Assembly: GCF_000023285.1 (NCBI RefSeq) | Contig: NC_013162.1 | Location: forward strand, 2,545,001-2,609,000 | From: Capnocytophaga ochracea DSM 7271 | Lineage (GTDB): Bacteria; Bacteroidota; Bacteroidia; Flavobacteriales; Flavobacteriaceae | Direction: 5' to 3' | Length of the DNA stretch: 64,000 nucleotides | In this document: positions 4,962 through 58,056 of the stretch, one piece after another | Layout: the number at the start of each line of letters is the position of its first letter | Position numbering within the stretch: position 1 is the first letter of the stretch | The notes under the pieces: model-generated | The model's input: the letters and a program-made list of their open reading frames with translations, nothing else | What the model was told of the DNA's origin: nothing | Database searches by the model: none | Position numbers and translations under genes: made by a program

Positions 4962-5139
4962 ATGTGCTATTAATACCACAATGCCAATTGTTGAAGGTAA
5001 AAGATAAAAGATAAAAGGTAAAAGGTAAAGTGTGAGCTCGTAGCGCAACAGACAGATAAAATTAGTAAATTAGTAAATGAGTCAATTAGCAAATGGGGAC
5101 GGGAGAATAAAATAATGTAGATATAAAAAGCTTATAGGA

Positions 5140-5385
5140 AAGACGAACAATGAACGAACAAAAGACGGTGCGAGCCGCACGGGCAGATAATGAAAAGACG
5201 AACAAAAGACGAAGAAAAGACGAACAAAGAACGAAGAAAAGACGAACAAAGAACGAAGAAAAGACGAACAAAAGACGAAGAAATGACGAACAAAAGACGA
5301 AGAAAAGACGAACAATGAACGAACAAATGACGAACAAATGACGGTGCGAGCCGCACGGGCAGATAAAGAAATGACGAAGGAAAAG
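5140..5385. repeat. Period-11 GACGAAC array with two AGC-loop hairpins
   Basis: About twenty 10-11 nt units of the form GACGAACAAAA, with variants GAACGAAG and GACGAAG, run through the segment. Two hairpin units GTGCG-AGC-CGCAC followed by GGGCAG interrupt or bound the array (5167-5186 and 5343-5362). The A-runs recur every 11 nt, close to one helical turn. Confidence 0.85.
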
Positions 5386-5513
5386 TGGGGGTAAGTTAAA
5401 GCTAAGATAAAAATAAAAAGAGGGTTATTAGTAGATTTCAACTTTGCCGAAGTTTGAAACTTTGGCAAAGTTCGTACATATAAACGAATAAATGACGGTG
5501 CAAGCCACACGGG
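5376..5513. repeat. 138-bp dispersed block, inverted copy at 48917-49055
   Basis: Starting at GAAGGAAA and running through a GTGGGGGTAAGTTAAAGCT segment, a palindrome (5441-5471) and a hairpin unit, this block matches the reverse complement of 48917-49055 almost throughout by eye. Differences are mostly single substitutions, and total length differs by one base. Confidence 0.85.
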
Positions 5514-5611
5514 AAAATAGACAATGAACAAAGGAAAAGTAGAGACAAGGTGGTGAAAAAGCGGAGAGCAAACGGAGAAAAACGACTGGAAAAATTAATT
5601 AGAAAATAATT

Positions 5612-5642
5612 TTGGGTAAATGAAAATAAATTCCTACCTTTG
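5612..5642 (+). promoter_or_regulatory. Promoter of the first GH6 gene
   Basis: TTG (5612-5614), a 20-nt spacer and TACCTTTG (5635-5642) match the Bacteroidota promoter. The leader to the ATG is about 25 nt. No equivalent is seen before the second GH6 gene, so the pair may form one transcript. Confidence 0.7.
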
Positions 5643-5673
5643 CCAAATTAACACATAAATAAGATTAAAGATT

Positions 5674-6726
5674 ATGAAGAAATTACTAGCCTTAATAGCT
5701 TTTTTATGGGTAATGACCGCCTGTGAAAAATCAGGGGAAGATACGCCCAAAAATACGCAAACTCAAATACCTTATGATTGGGATTTTTATTTGAAGCCTT
5801 CTCGGTTGTATGCAGTAAAAAATGAAAAAAATGCCGAGTTGAAAAAACTGTATTACCAAGTGTATGGTACGCCCTGCGGAGATTGGTATGATGGAATTAA
5901 CCCAAACAGTAAGGATAGCGACCTCTATCTAAAGAATTTTGTTGAAGGAGCTGAACACGCTCGCAAAACGCCTATTGTAGTGATTTACGGTATCCCCAAT
6001 CGCGATTGTGGCTCGTTTTCAAAAGGTGGACATCCTAATGCTGCTTCTTACAGAGCGTGGATAGATCGCGTAAGTGCCATTATTGGAAAACGCCGTGCAG
6101 TAGTAATTATCGAACCCGATGCTATTAACTACTGTAGACATAAAAAGGGCTCGGCTGAGTACAAAGAACGCGCTGATTTGCTTACTTATTGTGCAAGAAA
6201 GCTAAAAGAGAATAACCCTAATGTAGCGAGCTATATTCACGCTGGGAATTCTGTTTTGGTTACACAACACCCTGAAGCTGTTGCCAATGCCATTATAGAT
6301 GGAGGCTTACAATATATGCGTGGTTTCGCACTGAATGTTTCGGGCTTAGGAGGCACTGCTGAAGAACAAGCAGGAGCCGAGAAATTTGTAACTTACTTAG
6401 CTTCTAAAGGCTTTAAAGATGTGCATTACGTGATTGACACAGGGCGCAGTGGCATCAATAGACCTAAACACCAGAATGCAAATGCTCCTTATAACTCTTG
6501 CAATAACTTTAATGCAGCTTTAGGCCCGCGTAGCACTACCAAAACCACAGGTGCACACGCCGATGCTTATTTATGGATTAACGGAGGAGGTGGCTCTGAC
6601 GGTGAATGTAATATGGGAGCCCCCGCAGCGGGAGATCCTTATCCTGAATATACGAGACACTTGGTGCAAAACGCTATGAGAGTAAAGAGTATAGAGATTT
6701 TGGAAGTACCTCAAAACTTAAAATAG
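5674..6726 (+). CDS. Glycoside hydrolase family 6 lipoprotein (cellulase-like), copy 1
   Basis: A 350-residue predicted secreted lipoprotein: a short hydrophobic signal ends in VMTAC with C17 as the lipidated cysteine. The body shows GH6 landmarks in order: IPNRDC with D111, IIEPDA with D149 (position of the catalytic acid), YIHAGNS, VIDTGRSG at 254-260, and LWINGGGGSDGEC with D309. Family members invert beta-1,4-glucan linkages in cellulose-type chains. The general acid and the supporting Asp positions are all present, so it looks catalytically intact. It is compact with no obvious carbohydrate-binding module. A close paralogue follows 80 bp downstream. The true substrate is uncertain. Confidence 0.85.
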   Translation: MKKLLALIAFLWVMTACEKSGEDTPKNTQTQIPYDWDFYLKPSRLYAVKNEKNAELKKLYYQVYGTPCGDWYDGINPNSKDSDLYLKNFVEGAEHARKTPIVVIYGIPNRDCGSFSKGGHPNAASYRAWIDRVSAIIGKRRAVVIIEPDAINYCRHKKGSAEYKERADLLTYCARKLKENNPNVASYIHAGNSVLVTQHPEAVANAIIDGGLQYMRGFALNVSGLGGTAEEQAGAEKFVTYLASKGFKDVHYVIDTGRSGINRPKHQNANAPYNSCNNFNAALGPRSTTKTTGAHADAYLWINGGGGSDGECNMGAPAAGDPYPEYTRHLVQNAMRVKSIEILEVPQNLK

Positions 6727-6744
6727 TCGTAACACGACAGGCAA
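6726..6744. repeat. AGC-type hairpin unit abutting the GH6-1 stop codon
   Basis: GTCGT-AAC-ACGAC followed by AGGCAA begins on the final G of the TAG stop codon. The same arrangement occurs at the stop of the second GH6 gene (7985-8003), which continues into a CTTTGGCAAAG half-palindrome at 8010-8020. Confidence 0.75.
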
Positions 6745-6806
6745 TTATAAAATAACCTTTATCATTGCAAAGATAAGAATAATACAGATAAATAAGATTA
6801 ATGATT

Positions 6807-7985
6807 ATGAATAAATTACTATCCTTAGTAGCTTTTTTATGGGTAATGACCGCCTGTGAAAAATCAGGGGAAGAGAGCGACCCCTCTACACAGACTCCAA
6901 CAACGCAAACCTCTACTACACAAACTCCTACTACTCAGACCCCTACTACACCTCCTATTACGCCTCCGGTTACTCCTCCTATTCCACCTAACCCACCACA
7001 AGGTAAAAAGCCGGTAGCTTATGACTGGGATTTTTACTTGGAGCCCTCTCGGTTAGACGTAGTAAAAAATGAAAAAAATGCCGAGTTGAAAAAGCTGTAT
7101 TACCAAGTGTATGGTACGCCCTGCGGAGGTTGGTATGACGGCGGTGTTAGTCCTGGTAGTGGTGGTAAAGAGAAAAATGACCGTTGGCTTAAAAACTTCG
7201 TTGAGGGAGCAGAACGCGCTCGCAAAACGCCTATTGTGGTGCTTTACGGTATTCCCAATCGCGATTGTGGGTCGTTTTCAAAAGGAGGGCACCCTAATGC
7301 TGCTTCTTACAAAGAGTGGATAGACCGTGTAAGTGCCATTATTGGACAACGCCGTGCGGTGGTTATTATTGAACCTGATGCCATTAACTACTGCGGTCAC
7401 CCAAGAGGCTCAGCTAAATACAATGAGCGTGCTGAACTGCTTAATTATGCCGCTGAAAAACTAAATAAGAACAACCCTAATGTAGTGAGCTATATTCACG
7501 CTGGGAATTCTGATTTGGTCACAAAACACCCTGAAGCTGTTGCCAATGCTATTATAGATGGAGGTTTAAAATATATGCGTGGTTTCGCACTGAATGTTTC
7601 GGGCTTAGGAGGCACTGCCGAAGAACAAGCCGGAGCCGAGAGATTTGTAACTTACTTAGCTTCTAAAGGTTTTAAAGATGTGCATTACGTGATTGACACA
7701 GGGCGCAGTGGTATTAATAGACCTAAACACCAAAATGCAAATGCTCCTTATAACTCTTGCAATAACTTTAATGCAGCTTTAGGCCCGCGTAGCACTACCA
7801 AAACCACAGGTGCACACGCCGATGCTTATTTGTGGATTAACGGAGGAGGAGGCTCTGATGGTGAATGTAATATGGGAGCCCCCGCAGCGGGAAAGCCTTA
7901 TCCTGAATATACAAGACACTTGGTGCAAAACGCTATGAGAGTGAAAAGTATAGAGATTTTGGAAGTACCTCAAAACTTAAAATAG
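6807..7985 (+). CDS. Glycoside hydrolase family 6 lipoprotein, copy 2 with Thr/Pro linker
   Basis: A 392-residue paralogue of the preceding gene. It keeps the same lipoprotein signal (VMTAC) and the same GH6 landmarks (NRDC, EPDA, DTGRSG, GGSDGEC). It adds a linker of about 45 residues made of repeated TQTPTT units and then proline-rich segments, which would hold the enzyme away from the membrane. The C-terminal 150 residues are almost identical to copy 1, while the region after WYDG differs and is slightly longer. The ATG at 6807 aligns with the start of copy 1; an ATG two codons upstream is less likely. No separate promoter is evident. Confidence 0.85.
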   Translation: MNKLLSLVAFLWVMTACEKSGEESDPSTQTPTTQTSTTQTPTTQTPTTPPITPPVTPPIPPNPPQGKKPVAYDWDFYLEPSRLDVVKNEKNAELKKLYYQVYGTPCGGWYDGGVSPGSGGKEKNDRWLKNFVEGAERARKTPIVVLYGIPNRDCGSFSKGGHPNAASYKEWIDRVSAIIGQRRAVVIIEPDAINYCGHPRGSAKYNERAELLNYAAEKLNKNNPNVVSYIHAGNSDLVTKHPEAVANAIIDGGLKYMRGFALNVSGLGGTAEEQAGAERFVTYLASKGFKDVHYVIDTGRSGINRPKHQNANAPYNSCNNFNAALGPRSTTKTTGAHADAYLWINGGGGSDGECNMGAPAAGKPYPEYTRHLVQNAMRVKSIEILEVPQNLK

Positions 7986-8056
7986 TCGTAACACGACAAG
8001 CAATTAGAAACTTTGGCAAAGTGTGTGAAGAGTCGTAGCACAACAGAAGAGACATT

Positions 8057-8659
8057 TTATTTACATTGCCATTGGAAGTCTTCGACTTTAGATTGCATTT
8101 CGGGACGGTACTCATAGTGCCACCACTCTGAGAAAATAGATTTAAAGTTATATTTGTTGAGTACACCCTTCAACAACTTGCGATTCTCAAGTACCTTTTT
8201 AGGGAGGGTCGTGCAAGTGTGATGTGCTTTTTTACCAAAGAAATCAAAAGGAGTACCCATATCTAATTCCTTGCCTTGTGCATCTACAAGGGTAAGATCG
8301 ACAGCAGCCCCGCGATTGTGTTTAGAACCTTTCGCGGGGTTTGCTACGTAGTGGGTACCTGGAAGTATCTTCCACATCTTTTTCTGTACCGAAAGCGGTC
8401 GGTAGCAGTCGAACAATTTAATGCGGTATCCCAACGATTTAAACTCTTCATTAGCTTTTACCAAAGCCTTTGCAGTACTCTTGCGGAGATAGCATTCTCC
8501 ACAATCATATACTGCTTGTTTGAGAAAATTATCGGGGGTGGCGTATTTCATATCGAATACAAAGTCATTAGAAAGGCTTCTGAGGAGCACAAAATCATTC
8601 TGCTGTGCTAAAAGTGAGGACACTGATAATAATATAAAAAGTTGTAAGAGGTATTTCAT
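8057..8659 (-). CDS. D-alanyl-D-alanine dipeptidase (VanX/DdpX family, M15D)
   Basis: A 200-residue zinc peptidase with a cleavable signal (MKYLLQLFILLSVSSLLAQ). The SxHxxGxAxD zinc motif is seen as SKHNRGAAVD and the second zinc/catalytic motif as EWWH near the C-terminus. FDCYRPLSVQKKMW is also a family hallmark. The enzyme hydrolyses D-Ala-D-Ala in the periplasm, in salvage or cell-wall turnover. No van resistance genes are nearby, so a resistance role is not supported. A start 18 nt upstream (8677) would lie inside the -7 promoter box, so 8659 is chosen. Confidence 0.9.
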   Translation of the reverse strand: MKYLLQLFILLSVSSLLAQQNDFVLLRSLSNDFVFDMKYATPDNFLKQAVYDCGECYLRKSTAKALVKANEEFKSLGYRIKLFDCYRPLSVQKKMWKILPGTHYVANPAKGSKHNRGAAVDLTLVDAQGKELDMGTPFDFFGKKAHHTCTTLPKKVLENRKLLKGVLNKYNFKSIFSEWWHYEYRPEMQSKVEDFQWQCK

Positions 8660-8674
8660 AAGAGTGATTTTCGG

Positions 8675-8682
8675 CAAAAGTA
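8675..8682 (-). promoter_or_regulatory. -7 element of the dipeptidase gene
   Basis: On the minus strand this reads TACTTTTG, matching TAnnTTTG, 16 nt from the chosen ATG. It decides the start codon, since the alternative ATG overlaps it. Confidence 0.6.
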
Positions 8683-8702
8683 CAAAAAAACTTAAAAAAG
8701 GC

Positions 8703-8732
8703 TTGCTATATGTAACAAATTTACTACTTTTG
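8703..8732 (+). promoter_or_regulatory. Promoter of smpB
   Basis: TTG (8703-8705), a 19-nt spacer and TACTTTTG (8725-8732). The ATG of smpB follows only 4 nt after the -7 box, so the transcript may be leaderless. It is divergent from the dipeptidase promoter. Confidence 0.7.
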
Positions 8733-8736
8733 TGCT

Positions 8737-9192
8737 ATGATTCAGAAAACAGTACAAATACTCAACAAACGGGCAAAATTTGAATATGAAATCCTCGACA
8801 AATACACGGCGGGGATTGTGCTCGTGGGTACCGAAATAAAGTCTATACGAATGGGAAAAGCCTCGATAGCTGAGAGTTTTTGCGAGTTTAACGATAAAGG
8901 AGAGCTTTTCGTAATCAACTCTACCATTGAAGCATATGACTTTGGCACCTATTACAACCACCGCCCAAAAAGTGAACGCAAACTGCTTTTGCAGAAAAAA
9001 GAACTTCGCAAACTCAATAAAGAAGTGAAAAATAGCGGACTTACCATCGTACCTCTCAAACTCTTTATTAACGAAAAAGGCTTGGCTAAAATGGATATAG
9101 CCTTAGTACGCGGTAAGAAATTGTACGATAAACGCGAAACTATTAAAGACCGTGATAACAAGAGAAACTTGGATAGGCTGATGAAGAAGTAA
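8737..9192 (+). CDS. smpB: SsrA-binding protein SmpB
   Basis: A 151-residue RNA-binding protein that delivers tmRNA to stalled ribosomes for trans-translation. Family landmarks include [10 protein letters not shown] near the N-terminus, [18 protein letters not shown], the [11 protein letters not shown] segment, [20 protein letters not shown] and a basic C-terminal tail with [14 protein letters not shown]. Length is normal. The promoter lies so close that translation probably starts at or next to the 5' end of the mRNA. The tmRNA gene itself is not in this window. Confidence 0.96.
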
Positions 9193-11157: not shown

Positions 11158-11731
11158 CAAATAATTAGCAAAATGGCAAATAATATTAATAATACCAGAA
11201 ATGCCAATAATACTAAATTAATGACAAATGATGGTGTGAGCCACACAGGCGGGTGTGAGCCACACGGGCAGATAAAATTAGTAAATGAGTCAATTAGCAA
11301 ATTAGCAAATGGGGTGGGAGAATAAAATAATGTAGAAAGAAGCCTTATTTAATGATTAATGGTTAATGATTAATTTAGGAGAAGCTTATAGGAAAGACGA
11401 ACAAAAGACGGTGCGAGCCACACAGGCAGTCGTAGCACGACAGGCAGATAATGAAAAGACGAACAAAAGACGAACAAAAGACGAACAAAAGACGAACAAA
11501 AGACGAACAATGAACGAAGAAAAGATAAATCTAAGGTGGAAATAAGAAGAAGGTTATTAGTAGAATTCATACTGCAACGGCGAAGGGTATATGAAGATGG
11601 GGTTGTTTTATGTGTGAAAAACAGTAGTTTTCAGATATTTAAATAATAATTTCAAATTAATTAAACGACTGGAATACAGTATATAATAAATTAGTATACA
11701 CAAAAATAATCTGAAAAAAGAGAAAAAAGTT
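11158..11731. other. Repeat-mosaic gap between lysA and rpmB
   Basis: No gene is supported. It contains the 9-mer module in reverse (11182-11219), two GTGTG-AGC-CACAC hairpins (11232-11270), TTAGCAAAT units (11288-11310), ATTAATG-type octamers (11350-11375), an AAGCTTATAGGAA module, a hairpin pair plus period-11 array (11386-11515), and a degenerate relative of the 138-bp block (11520-11570). The flanking genes are divergent. Confidence 0.75.
11386..11515. repeat. Period-11 array with two hairpins
   Basis: After AAGCTTATAGGAA and one GACGAACAAAA unit come hairpins GTGCG-AGC-CACAC and GTCGT-AGC-ACGAC, each followed by AGGCAG. Then five exact-period units of GACGAACAAAA follow (11458, 11469, 11480, 11491, 11502). 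An inverted, rearranged counterpart lies at about 49170-49290. Confidence 0.85.
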
Positions 11732-16203: not shown

Positions 16204-16432
16204 TACACTTATTGTTCGTTCATCGTTCGTCATTCGTTCATTTGCCCGTGCGGCTCGTACCGTCATTTGTTCGTCATTTGTTCGTCATTTGTTCGTCATT
16301 TGTTCGTCATTTGTTCGTTCATTGTTCGTCTTTTCATTATCTGCCTGTCGTGCTACGACTGCCCGTGCGGCTCGCACGTGCCTGTCGTGCTACGACCTCG
16401 CACTTTACCTTTTACCTTTTATCTTTTACCTA
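16204..16432. repeat. Repeat mosaic immediately upstream of mutL
   Basis: Reverse-oriented copy of the intergenic modules: ATTGTTCGTTCAT units, a hairpin (16242-16261), at least five units of CGTCATTTGTT with period 11 (16261-16320), three alternating hairpins GTCGT/GTGCG/GTCGT type (16341-16397), and TTTTACC heptamers (16401-16431). The heptamers end 7 nt before the mutL ATG. The rest of the gap back to 16053 holds the divergent protease promoter and AT-rich sequence; no gene is seen. Confidence 0.85.
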
Positions 16433-24771: not shown

Positions 24772-25287
24772 CTATGAACCCTCTTGCTCTCTTCGTTTTG
24801 AATTAGACAAATGGTGAAAAACTCCGATTTTTAGGAAAAGAATGAACGAACAAAATATCCTCACCCCAGCCACATACTCTCCTATTCGGAGACTTCTCCC
24901 AAGGAGAGGGAGGGTAGTAACGGAAAAATGAGACAAACAATGAACGAACAAATGACGGTGCGAGCCGCACGGGCAGGTAATGAAAAGACGAACAATGAAC
25001 GAAGAAAAGACGAACAAATGACGAACAAATGACGAACAAATGACGAAGCTAAACTGAAGCTAAGACAAAGTTATAATCTTAGAAAACTAAATACTAATTG
25101 CTTTTTTAAGGTAATAAAACTTTGAAAAAAACGCAATGATTTTAGAGTTTTTATGATTTTTAGACTTCAATAAAGTAAATGAGATTTACTTCGGACAATC
25201 AGGATTTAAATAGCTATTATTCAAACATATAAAATTATATATAAATAAAAAAGTGATTAAAGTAGCTTTTATTCAAAATATTATTCG
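24772..25287. repeat. Repeat-mosaic gap between the AI-2E transporter and lpdA
   Basis: No gene is supported. It contains a degenerate CCTCACCCC...CTCC-CAA-GGAG element (24858-24912), one GTGCG-AGC-CGCAC hairpin (24957-24976), and period-11 GACGAACAAATG units (24983-25045) ending in GACGAAGCTAAACTGAAGC, a relative of the 138-bp block. The remaining 200 bp are AT-rich sequence leading to the lpdA promoter. Confidence 0.8.
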
Positions 25288-27667: not shown

Positions 27668-27730
27668 CAAAAAAGACTTCAATAGGACGTAATTGATGAT
27701 ATAAATGAAAGGTAACGCCAATAATACCAA

Positions 27731-27886
27731 TGAGAAAATGAGAGAATGAGAAAATGAGAGAATGAGAAAATGAGAGAATGAGAAAATGAGAGAATGAGAA
27801 AATTAGAGAATGAGAAAATTAGAGAATGAGAAAATTAGAGAATGAGAAAATTAGAGAATGAGAAAATTAGAAAATTAGAGAATTAG
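27731..27886. repeat. 16-bp tandem repeat (VNTR)
   Basis: Four units of TGAGAAAATGAGAGAA (27731-27794) are followed by about four of TGAGAAAATTAGAGAA (27795-27858), then partial TTAGAAAATTAGAGAATTAG. The two unit types are blocked rather than mixed, as expected from slippage or unequal crossing-over. A 9-mer module (27715-27730) adjoins it on the left. Confidence 0.9.
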
Positions 27887-48789: not shown

Positions 48790-49447
48790 AAGTAAAAAAT
48801 TCACTTTACCTCAATTTAATCCTCCTCTTAACCTCAACGTACCCCCACCCTTCCTTCGCTTATTCGTTATCTGCCCGTGCAGTTCGCACCGTCATTTGTT
48901 CGTTCTTTCTCCATCTGCCCGTGCGGCTCGCACCGTCTTTTGTTCATTTATATATACAAACTTTGCCAAAGTTTGAAACTTTGGCAAAGTTGAAATCTAC
49001 TAATCACCCTCTTTTTATATCTATCTTAGCTTTAACTTACCCCCACATTTCCTTCGTTCTTTGTTCGTCATTCGTTCGTCATTCGTTCGTCTTTTGTTCG
49101 TCTTTTGTTCGTCTTTTGTTCGTCTTTTGTTCGTCTTTTGTTCGTCTTTTGTTCGTCTTTTGTTTATTTGCCTGTCGTGCTACGACTGCCTGTGCGGCTC
49201 GCACCTGCCTGTCGTGCTACGACTACCCGTGTGGCTCGCACCATCTTTCCTATAAGCTTCTCCCAAATTAATCATTAATCATTAAACAATCGGTATTATT
49301 AGCATTTTTGGCATTGTGGCATTAAACTCATTTATCCATTTGATAATCAATAAATATATAAGAATATATACCCCTTATGCCAGCCTTTCAAATACAAATA
49401 AAATATAATTTTTTAGGACTTTATTTTTCTATGTTCAGTAAAATATA
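48790..49447. repeat. Repeat-mosaic gap between prfC and secDF
   Basis: Largest mosaic in the window: hairpins at 48870-48890 and 48916-48935, the 139-bp block (48917-49055) with perfect palindrome 48960-48990, about nine units of TTTTGTTCGTC with period 11 (49070-49165), four alternating hairpins (49168-49242), AAGCTT/TTCCTATAAGC module, ATTAATC octamers, and the 9-mer module (49292-49328). No gene is supported; flanking genes diverge. Confidence 0.85.
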
Positions 49448-57789: not shown

Positions 57790-58056
57790 TACCTTCGCTC
57801 ATTGTTCGTCATTTCTCTATCTGCCCGTTCGAATCGCACCGTCTTTTGTTCGTTCTTTGTTCGTTCTTTGTTCGTTCTTTGTTCGTTCTTTGTTCGTCTT
57901 TTGTTCGTTAATTATTTATCCGCCCGTGTGGCTCACACTATCTGCACGTGCGGCTCGCACCTGTTCGTGTGGCTCACACCAGCCCGTGAGGCTCGCACTG
58001 TCACTCGCCATTGATTTGGTATTTTTGGCATTATTGGCATTATTGGTATTAAATTA
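57790..58056. repeat. Repeat-mosaic gap upstream of ftsX
   Basis: Reverse-oriented modules: hairpins with GCT loop (57820-57840), five units of CGTTCTTTGTT with period 11 (57843-57910), four degenerate hairpins (57920-58000), then the 9-mer module (58018-58056). It lies between a terminator and the ftsX promoter. No gene is supported. Confidence 0.82.

Follow-up and report, generated by a model that had tools for sequence, protein, structure and literature searches.

Tandem GH6 lipoproteins of Capnocytophaga ochracea with retained catalytic residues and replaced glucan-contact residues

Organization of the GH6 locus

The analyzed window, a 64,000-nucleotide stretch of C. ochracea DSM 7271, harbors two adjacent open reading frames, A1 and A2 (Table 1). 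As the initial annotation had proposed, they form a tandem pair of GH6 lipoprotein genes: both products match the Pfam profile PF01341, Glyco_hydro_6 (5.7e-47 and 161 bits for A1, 2.2e-45 and 156 bits for A2, cut-off 27), and both contain a lipobox. The genus it had given, Flavobacterium, was corrected, as related loci place the genome in Capnocytophaga (family Flavobacteriaceae). The likely start of A2 is the ATG at 6807. Pfam analysis of A1 and A2 detected no domain beyond PF01341 and no carbohydrate-binding module. The repeated TQTPTT linker described for the second copy was traced to a 15-base tandem array.

Table 1. Features of the GH6 locus, in window coordinates
Feature	Coordinates	Strand	Basis
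3.9-kb block with the GH6 pair, M15 peptidase and smpB; 96.9% identical, out of context, in G008	5301..9192	.	Genome comparison
Promoter match, Bacteroidota-type, TTG-N20-TACCTTTG, upstream of A1	5612..5642	+	Pattern scan
GH6 lipoprotein A1, 350 aa, short linker	5674..6726	+	ORF list and Pfam PF01341
C-terminal third of A1, homogenised with A2	6289..6726	+	Sequence comparison
GH6 lipoprotein A2, 394 aa, Thr/Pro linker	6801..7985	+	ORF list and Pfam PF01341
15-base tandem repeat coding the TQTPTT linker of A2	6880..6951	+	Tandem Repeats Finder
C-terminal third of A2, homogenised with A1	7548..7985	+	Sequence comparison
Secreted M15 peptidase, VanX-like D-Ala-D-Ala dipeptidase family	8057..8659	-	Pfam PF01427 1.1e-33
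smpB; the shared block ends on the right at its stop codon	8737..9192	+	ORF list and block comparison

Inspection of A1 and A2 revealed a hydrophobic signal followed by a lipobox cysteine (..LWVMTAC-EKSGE), and this cysteine was invariant on inspection in 12/12 Capnocytophaga GH6 proteins. The surface export signal of Capnocytophaga lipoproteins is C-X-K-(D/E)2-X (PMC5080379). After the lipobox, A1 and A2 read C-E-K-S-G-E-D/E, which places a lysine at +3 and the acidic pair at +6/+7 and not at +4/+5. Surface exposure of the Capnocytophaga GH6 lipoproteins may be considered plausible.

The pattern scan that identified the promoter match upstream of A1 gave 20 matches on the plus strand of the window against ~3 expected from shuffling. 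It found no Bacteroidota-type promoter match in the gap of ~75 bases before A2, and hence the pair may be one transcript. The intergenic DNA of the window also carries arrays of an 11-base unit (AAAAGACGAAC and variants, in both orientations) at 5113-5389, 11407-11573, 16206-16337, 24982-25048, 49048-49164 and 57845-57909, often beside GTGCGAGCCACACGGGCA-type units; one such array flanks the GH6 block on the left, and the copy of the block in the genome G008 also has such repeats. A clean 16-base tandem array (AATGAGAAAATTAGAG, 9.9 copies, 97% matches) is present at 27729-27886.

Family membership, fold and active site

Profile, sequence and fold all bore out the assignment to GH6. The best phmmer match of the window protein was M. 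tuberculosis Cel6 (3.8e-46). An AlphaFold2 model (pLDDT 89, pTM 0.90), obtained without ligand from a thin alignment, adopted the distorted beta/alpha-barrel fold of the family. Foldseek searches with this model retrieved solved GH6 endoglucanases with E values down to 1e-24 and target-normalised TM scores up to ~0.9, and each of ranks 1-46 was either a GH6 entry or a scaffold derived from one. The Capnocytophaga proteins are correctly named GH6.

The 12 Capnocytophaga GH6 proteins were aligned with T. fusca Cel6A (TfCel6A), M. tuberculosis Cel6, mgCel6A (compost metagenome) and a further 57 GH6 domains taken from phages, plasmids and viral contigs. Actinobacterial chromosomes are accordingly represented only via a few of the 57 domains and the three solved enzymes. 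T. reesei Cel6A (TrCel6A), the sequence of which is fully identical to PDB 3CBH, was joined to the alignment afterwards and provides the numbering used below. Residues W135, Y169, R174, D175, D221, R353 and D401 were kept in 12/12 Capnocytophaga proteins, including the catalytic acid of the EPD motif (D221) and the Asp of the RDC motif (D175); D401 was required by the scan patterns, and its conservation in the comparison set is hence not independent. The retained residues are R110/D111, D149 (acid) and D309 in A1, and D155, D193 (acid) and D353 in A2.

The usual glucan-contact residues were found to be replaced. D263 is His in 12/12 Capnocytophaga proteins, W269 is Leu in 10 with a gap in 2, N305 is Gly or Asp, and W367 is Ser in 12/12. 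The corresponding residues of the other domains are Asp, Trp and Asn in 57/57 each and, for W367, Trp in 50 and Tyr in 6 of 57; these four positions lay outside the scan patterns, and their conservation in the comparison set is no selection effect. K395 is Asn in the 10 clade A proteins and Lys in both clade B members, against Lys in 57/57 others, sequences retrieved by the scan pattern being limited to K or N here. E399 is Gly (clade A) or Leu (clade B), and E, D, N or Q in 57/57 others. All six contacts are changed in clade A; in clade B, D263, W269, N305, W367 and E399 are changed and K395 is kept. The replacing residues, in the order D263 to E399, are H189, L195, G224, S275, N303 and G307 in A1, and H233, L239, G268, S319, N347 and G351 in A2. 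The initial annotation had both copies keeping the catalytic Asp positions, which is correct for the equivalents of TfCel6A D79, D117 and D265 but not for a fourth, D156 (TrCel6A D263), which is His in both. Its treatment of the catalytic site as standard does not agree with the alignment, in which the substrate-binding residues have been rebuilt.

In T. reesei Cel6A, K395 binds O3 at the -1 and O6 at the -2 subsite and E399 the O6 at -1, with stacking on the substrate provided by W269 and W367 (PMC6091422, PMC3962180). In view of these roles, the catalytic apparatus has been kept and the grip on the glucan replaced. The C-loop comprises 10 residues in Capnocytophaga GH6 vs. 26 in TrCel6A, and the TrCel6A insertion after the RDC motif is absent. 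Since the tunnel of cellobiohydrolases is built by long loops (PMC5968413), the lack of extended N and C loops to close it argues for an open, endo-type cleft, and a cellobiohydrolase reading was rejected on this ground.

The dN/dS between clade-A members was 0.06-0.23, which led to the rejection of a pseudogene reading. As the replacing residues are also fixed across near-saturating silent divergence, remodelling rather than decay is indicated, and the remodelled site is a stable one.

Distribution, gene conversion and movement between species

The same 2,612,925-base genome contains a third GH6 gene at 656033, which is an older paralogue. One to three GH6 genes were present in 8/20 Capnocytophaga genomes, and outside the genus none was found in ~1,350 sampled genomes (different genomes by handle numbers) drawn over family, phylum, class, order and a second order. 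This genome served as the positive control in the family, phylum, class and order draws, and the second-order draw was without any match anywhere. These counts agree with the initial view of GH6 as rare in Bacteroidota; a wide vertical distribution across Flavobacteriaceae, which had been set as the observation that would overturn it, was not seen in the genome draws. Elsewhere in the genome, GH3 and GH5-type genes lie side by side at G000:C1:1189995-1192522 (L168, L170), a possible beta-glucan locus.

A protein scan of genome contigs identified GH6 in Capnocytophaga only, and plasmid and phage searches yielded GH6 proteins of Actinomycetota and a few Pseudomonadota with 28-36% identity. A viral scan gave no match with the window protein alone and 214 distant GH6s with a mixed alignment, of which 80 were kept. 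A GH6 domain with 33% identity to the window protein is encoded at 847-1650 of a contig labelled phage from human stool (L018, MT836874.1); this stands against the absence of GH6 from gut samples reported in PMC3374616. In the phylogenetic analysis, the Capnocytophaga proteins formed a clade (100/99) that falls within the bacterial endoglucanase-type GH6s, on a stem of ~1.1 changes per site and with no sister group resolved. Owing to the long stem and the lack of a resolved sister no donor is named, and the phylogeny that had been suggested for finding one brought out no donor phylum.

The almost identical C-terminal thirds of the two copies and their divergence from the WYDG region on, noticed at the outset, were confirmed, the copies differing most in the middle of the domain. 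Silent differences per site between A1 and A2 were 0.14 in the C-terminal third vs. 0.41 in the middle (Fisher p 3e-5), a contrast that supports the proposed gene conversion for the C-terminal third. Between species this third is not so protected, with silent differences of 0.40-0.73. Among the two-state sites of the central part of the domain, 70 distinguish A1 from A2 in each of the two pair-bearing genomes and none distinguishes one genome from the other; the C-terminal third has 6 sites of the former kind and 1 of the latter. These counts suggest that conversion took place mostly before the split of the two pairs. The GH6 of C. periodontitidis (L029) matches A2 at 96-99% identity over a central tract and at a clearly lower 71-93% on either side of it, which is a sign of exchange between species.

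The 3.9-kb block carrying the pair recurs in G008, which is a different species (radA DNA 76.2% identical), and the third GH6 gene and its neighbours are shared with it as a 6.85-kb block of 97.9% identity. A 20-kb control from the window compared with G008 gave 65-84% for longer matches, short repeats being set aside. The identity of 97-98% against 65-84% elsewhere indicates that both GH6 loci moved recently between species. G008 retains its own diverged M15 copy, and the 3.9-kb block is hence an addition there. As the neighbourhood of the pair in C. ochracea (radA, rfbA, M15) is the same as in its relatives, C. ochracea itself or one of its close kin would be the likelier source of this block. 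In G008, an IS4/5-family transposase lies ~1.9 kb from the 3.9-kb block and directly beside the 6.85-kb block. Contamination of the assembly as the source of these blocks was rejected, because they lie within native sequence on a single contig. In G008, the transferred GH6 block is immediately followed on its right by three tandem related lipoprotein genes (L024, 12405-15590), and an IS4/5 transposase lies on its left.

M15 adjoins GH6-A genes in five genomes. In genomes that lack GH6, the junction next to M15 is clean, being phosphoesterase-M15 in G001 and G009 and TPR lipoprotein-M15 in G019, G006 and G005. A transfer into C. gingivalis was also considered and dropped: a position sister to the GH6 of G011, as for radA, was weakly rejected (p-AU 0.012), but a single clade of G004, G007 and G011 was not (p 0.51). 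Inspection of the listed neighbours of the GH6 genes revealed no SusCD (polysaccharide-utilisation) genes, and a reading as PUL enzymes was rejected for this reason.

Proposed specificity and comparison with known systems

At the level of sequence, the analysis establishes the fold and family membership, the kept acid and putative base, and the lost contacts and missing loops. It also shows that the genes are under purifying selection, have undergone gene conversion and were recently transferred from one Capnocytophaga species to another. The best explanation, and in our judgement a probable one, is that the proteins are lipid-anchored, catalytically competent GH6 enzymes with an open endo-type cleft, the glucan-binding subsites of which have been rebuilt on both sides of the scissile bond. 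Each would be a lipoprotein anchored by its N-terminal Cys, most likely in the outer membrane, and carried on a linker of variable length. Inverting cleavage would be retained, the role of the acid falling to D149 in A1 and D193 in A2, and that of the remote base to D111 and D155, respectively. The substrate would be another beta-linked polysaccharide met in plaque and not plain cellulose. With Asn in place of Lys395 and Gly in place of Glu399, the cleft would accommodate a sugar that lacks a normal O6 or carries a substituted one, and the loss of both O6 contacts would point to a backbone of this kind. More tentatively, the proteins could represent a Capnocytophaga-specific GH6 subfamily that has changed its substrate, probably to a plaque beta-linked polysaccharide with absent or substituted O6, and spreads between oral Capnocytophaga species as small blocks.

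The catalytic residues and fold match endoglucanases, and the pair could be ordinary GH6 endoglucanases that act in the mouth on cellulose from the diet or on mixed-linkage beta-glucan, with substitutions that tune affinity only. Two metagenome papers credit Capnocytophaga GH6 with oral cellulose digestion (PMC3374616, PMC8702856), and the four GH3 matches of the genome, with a GH5-type gene beside one, could finish beta-glucan oligomers. The replaced contact residues are by themselves compatible with weak activity on cellulose or mixed-linkage glucan. However, six positions that are invariant or nearly so in the 57 GH6 domains are all gone in clade A, and the genes have neither a carbohydrate-binding module nor SusCD neighbours; we consider this explanation unlikely, though worth weighing. 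That the domains are catalytically weak or dead and are retained as glycan-binding or structural surface lipoproteins would fit the loss of aromatic and polar contacts, and the tunicate CesA-GH6 keeps its GH6 domain without the catalytic Asp (PMC7464555). The invariance in 12/12 proteins, at near-saturating silent divergence, of the equivalents of the acid D221, the putative base D175, R174, Y169 and D401 makes this improbable.

The adjacency of GH6-A to M15 in five genomes and their movement together as one block could also point to an enzyme of Capnocytophaga's own cell envelope, acting with the neighbouring D-Ala-D-Ala dipeptidase on wall or capsule. Such a role is very improbable: M15 is present in 20/20 genomes but GH6 in 8, GH6-A is located elsewhere in three genomes, and GH6-B is not beside M15.

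A catalytically competent GH6 with rebuilt subsites, the reading preferred here, can be compared with three characterized enzymes. M. tuberculosis Cel6 (Rv0062, PDB 1UOZ/1UP0), an endoglucanase, is the closest solved relative by both sequence and fold, with a fold-match E value of 1e-24, and shares with the pair the short C-loop, the catalytic Asp residues and the RDCGS motif. It is 34% identical and, unlike the Capnocytophaga proteins, retains the equivalents of D263, W269, N305, W367, K395 and E399; its aligned part is without a Bacteroidota-type lipobox and linker. D79, D117, D265, Y73, R78 and W41 of the open-cleft endocellulase T. fusca Cel6A (PDB 1TML/2BOD) are kept in Capnocytophaga, whereas its D156, W162, N190, W231, K259 and E263 are H, L, G, S, N and G in the pair. 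T. reesei Cel6A (cellobiohydrolase II) belongs to the same family and has the same catalytic pair, D175/D221, but its long N and C loops are missing from the Capnocytophaga proteins, as are its W269, W272, W367, K395 and E399, which leaves the published 'cellobiohydrolase' label for the oral genes unsupported.

That label stems from metagenome surveys. Cantarel et al. (2012) describe GH6 as oral-cavity-specific and of high prevalence in supragingival plaque, assign it primarily to Capnocytophaga, and treat it as a non-reducing-end cellobiohydrolase (PMC3374616); a 2021 survey repeats the cellulose reading (PMC8702856). Plaque GH6 has been used to argue that the digestion of cellulose begins in the mouth through a cellobiohydrolase. 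With the acid and base kept but the cellulose-gripping residues almost all replaced, there is reason to doubt the label 'oral cellulase'. Should cellulose no longer fit the cleft, the inference of oral digestion fails, and a common plaque bacterium has an enzyme for some other substrate. Within a cellulase family that is among the best studied, this would also be a natural change of specificity that left the catalytic pair constant, and the roles of K395, E399, W269 and W367 could be tested in a second background. Our literature search found no biochemical work on Capnocytophaga GH6 proteins. Both surveys, of plaque and saliva, concern the same genes at the genus level and, in the portions available, infer cellulose digestion from family membership without treating the active site, paralogues, conversion or transfer. 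It was hence known already that oral Capnocytophaga carry GH6, and what is new relative to these portions is the rebuilt site, the third paralogue, the gene conversion and the interspecies transfer.
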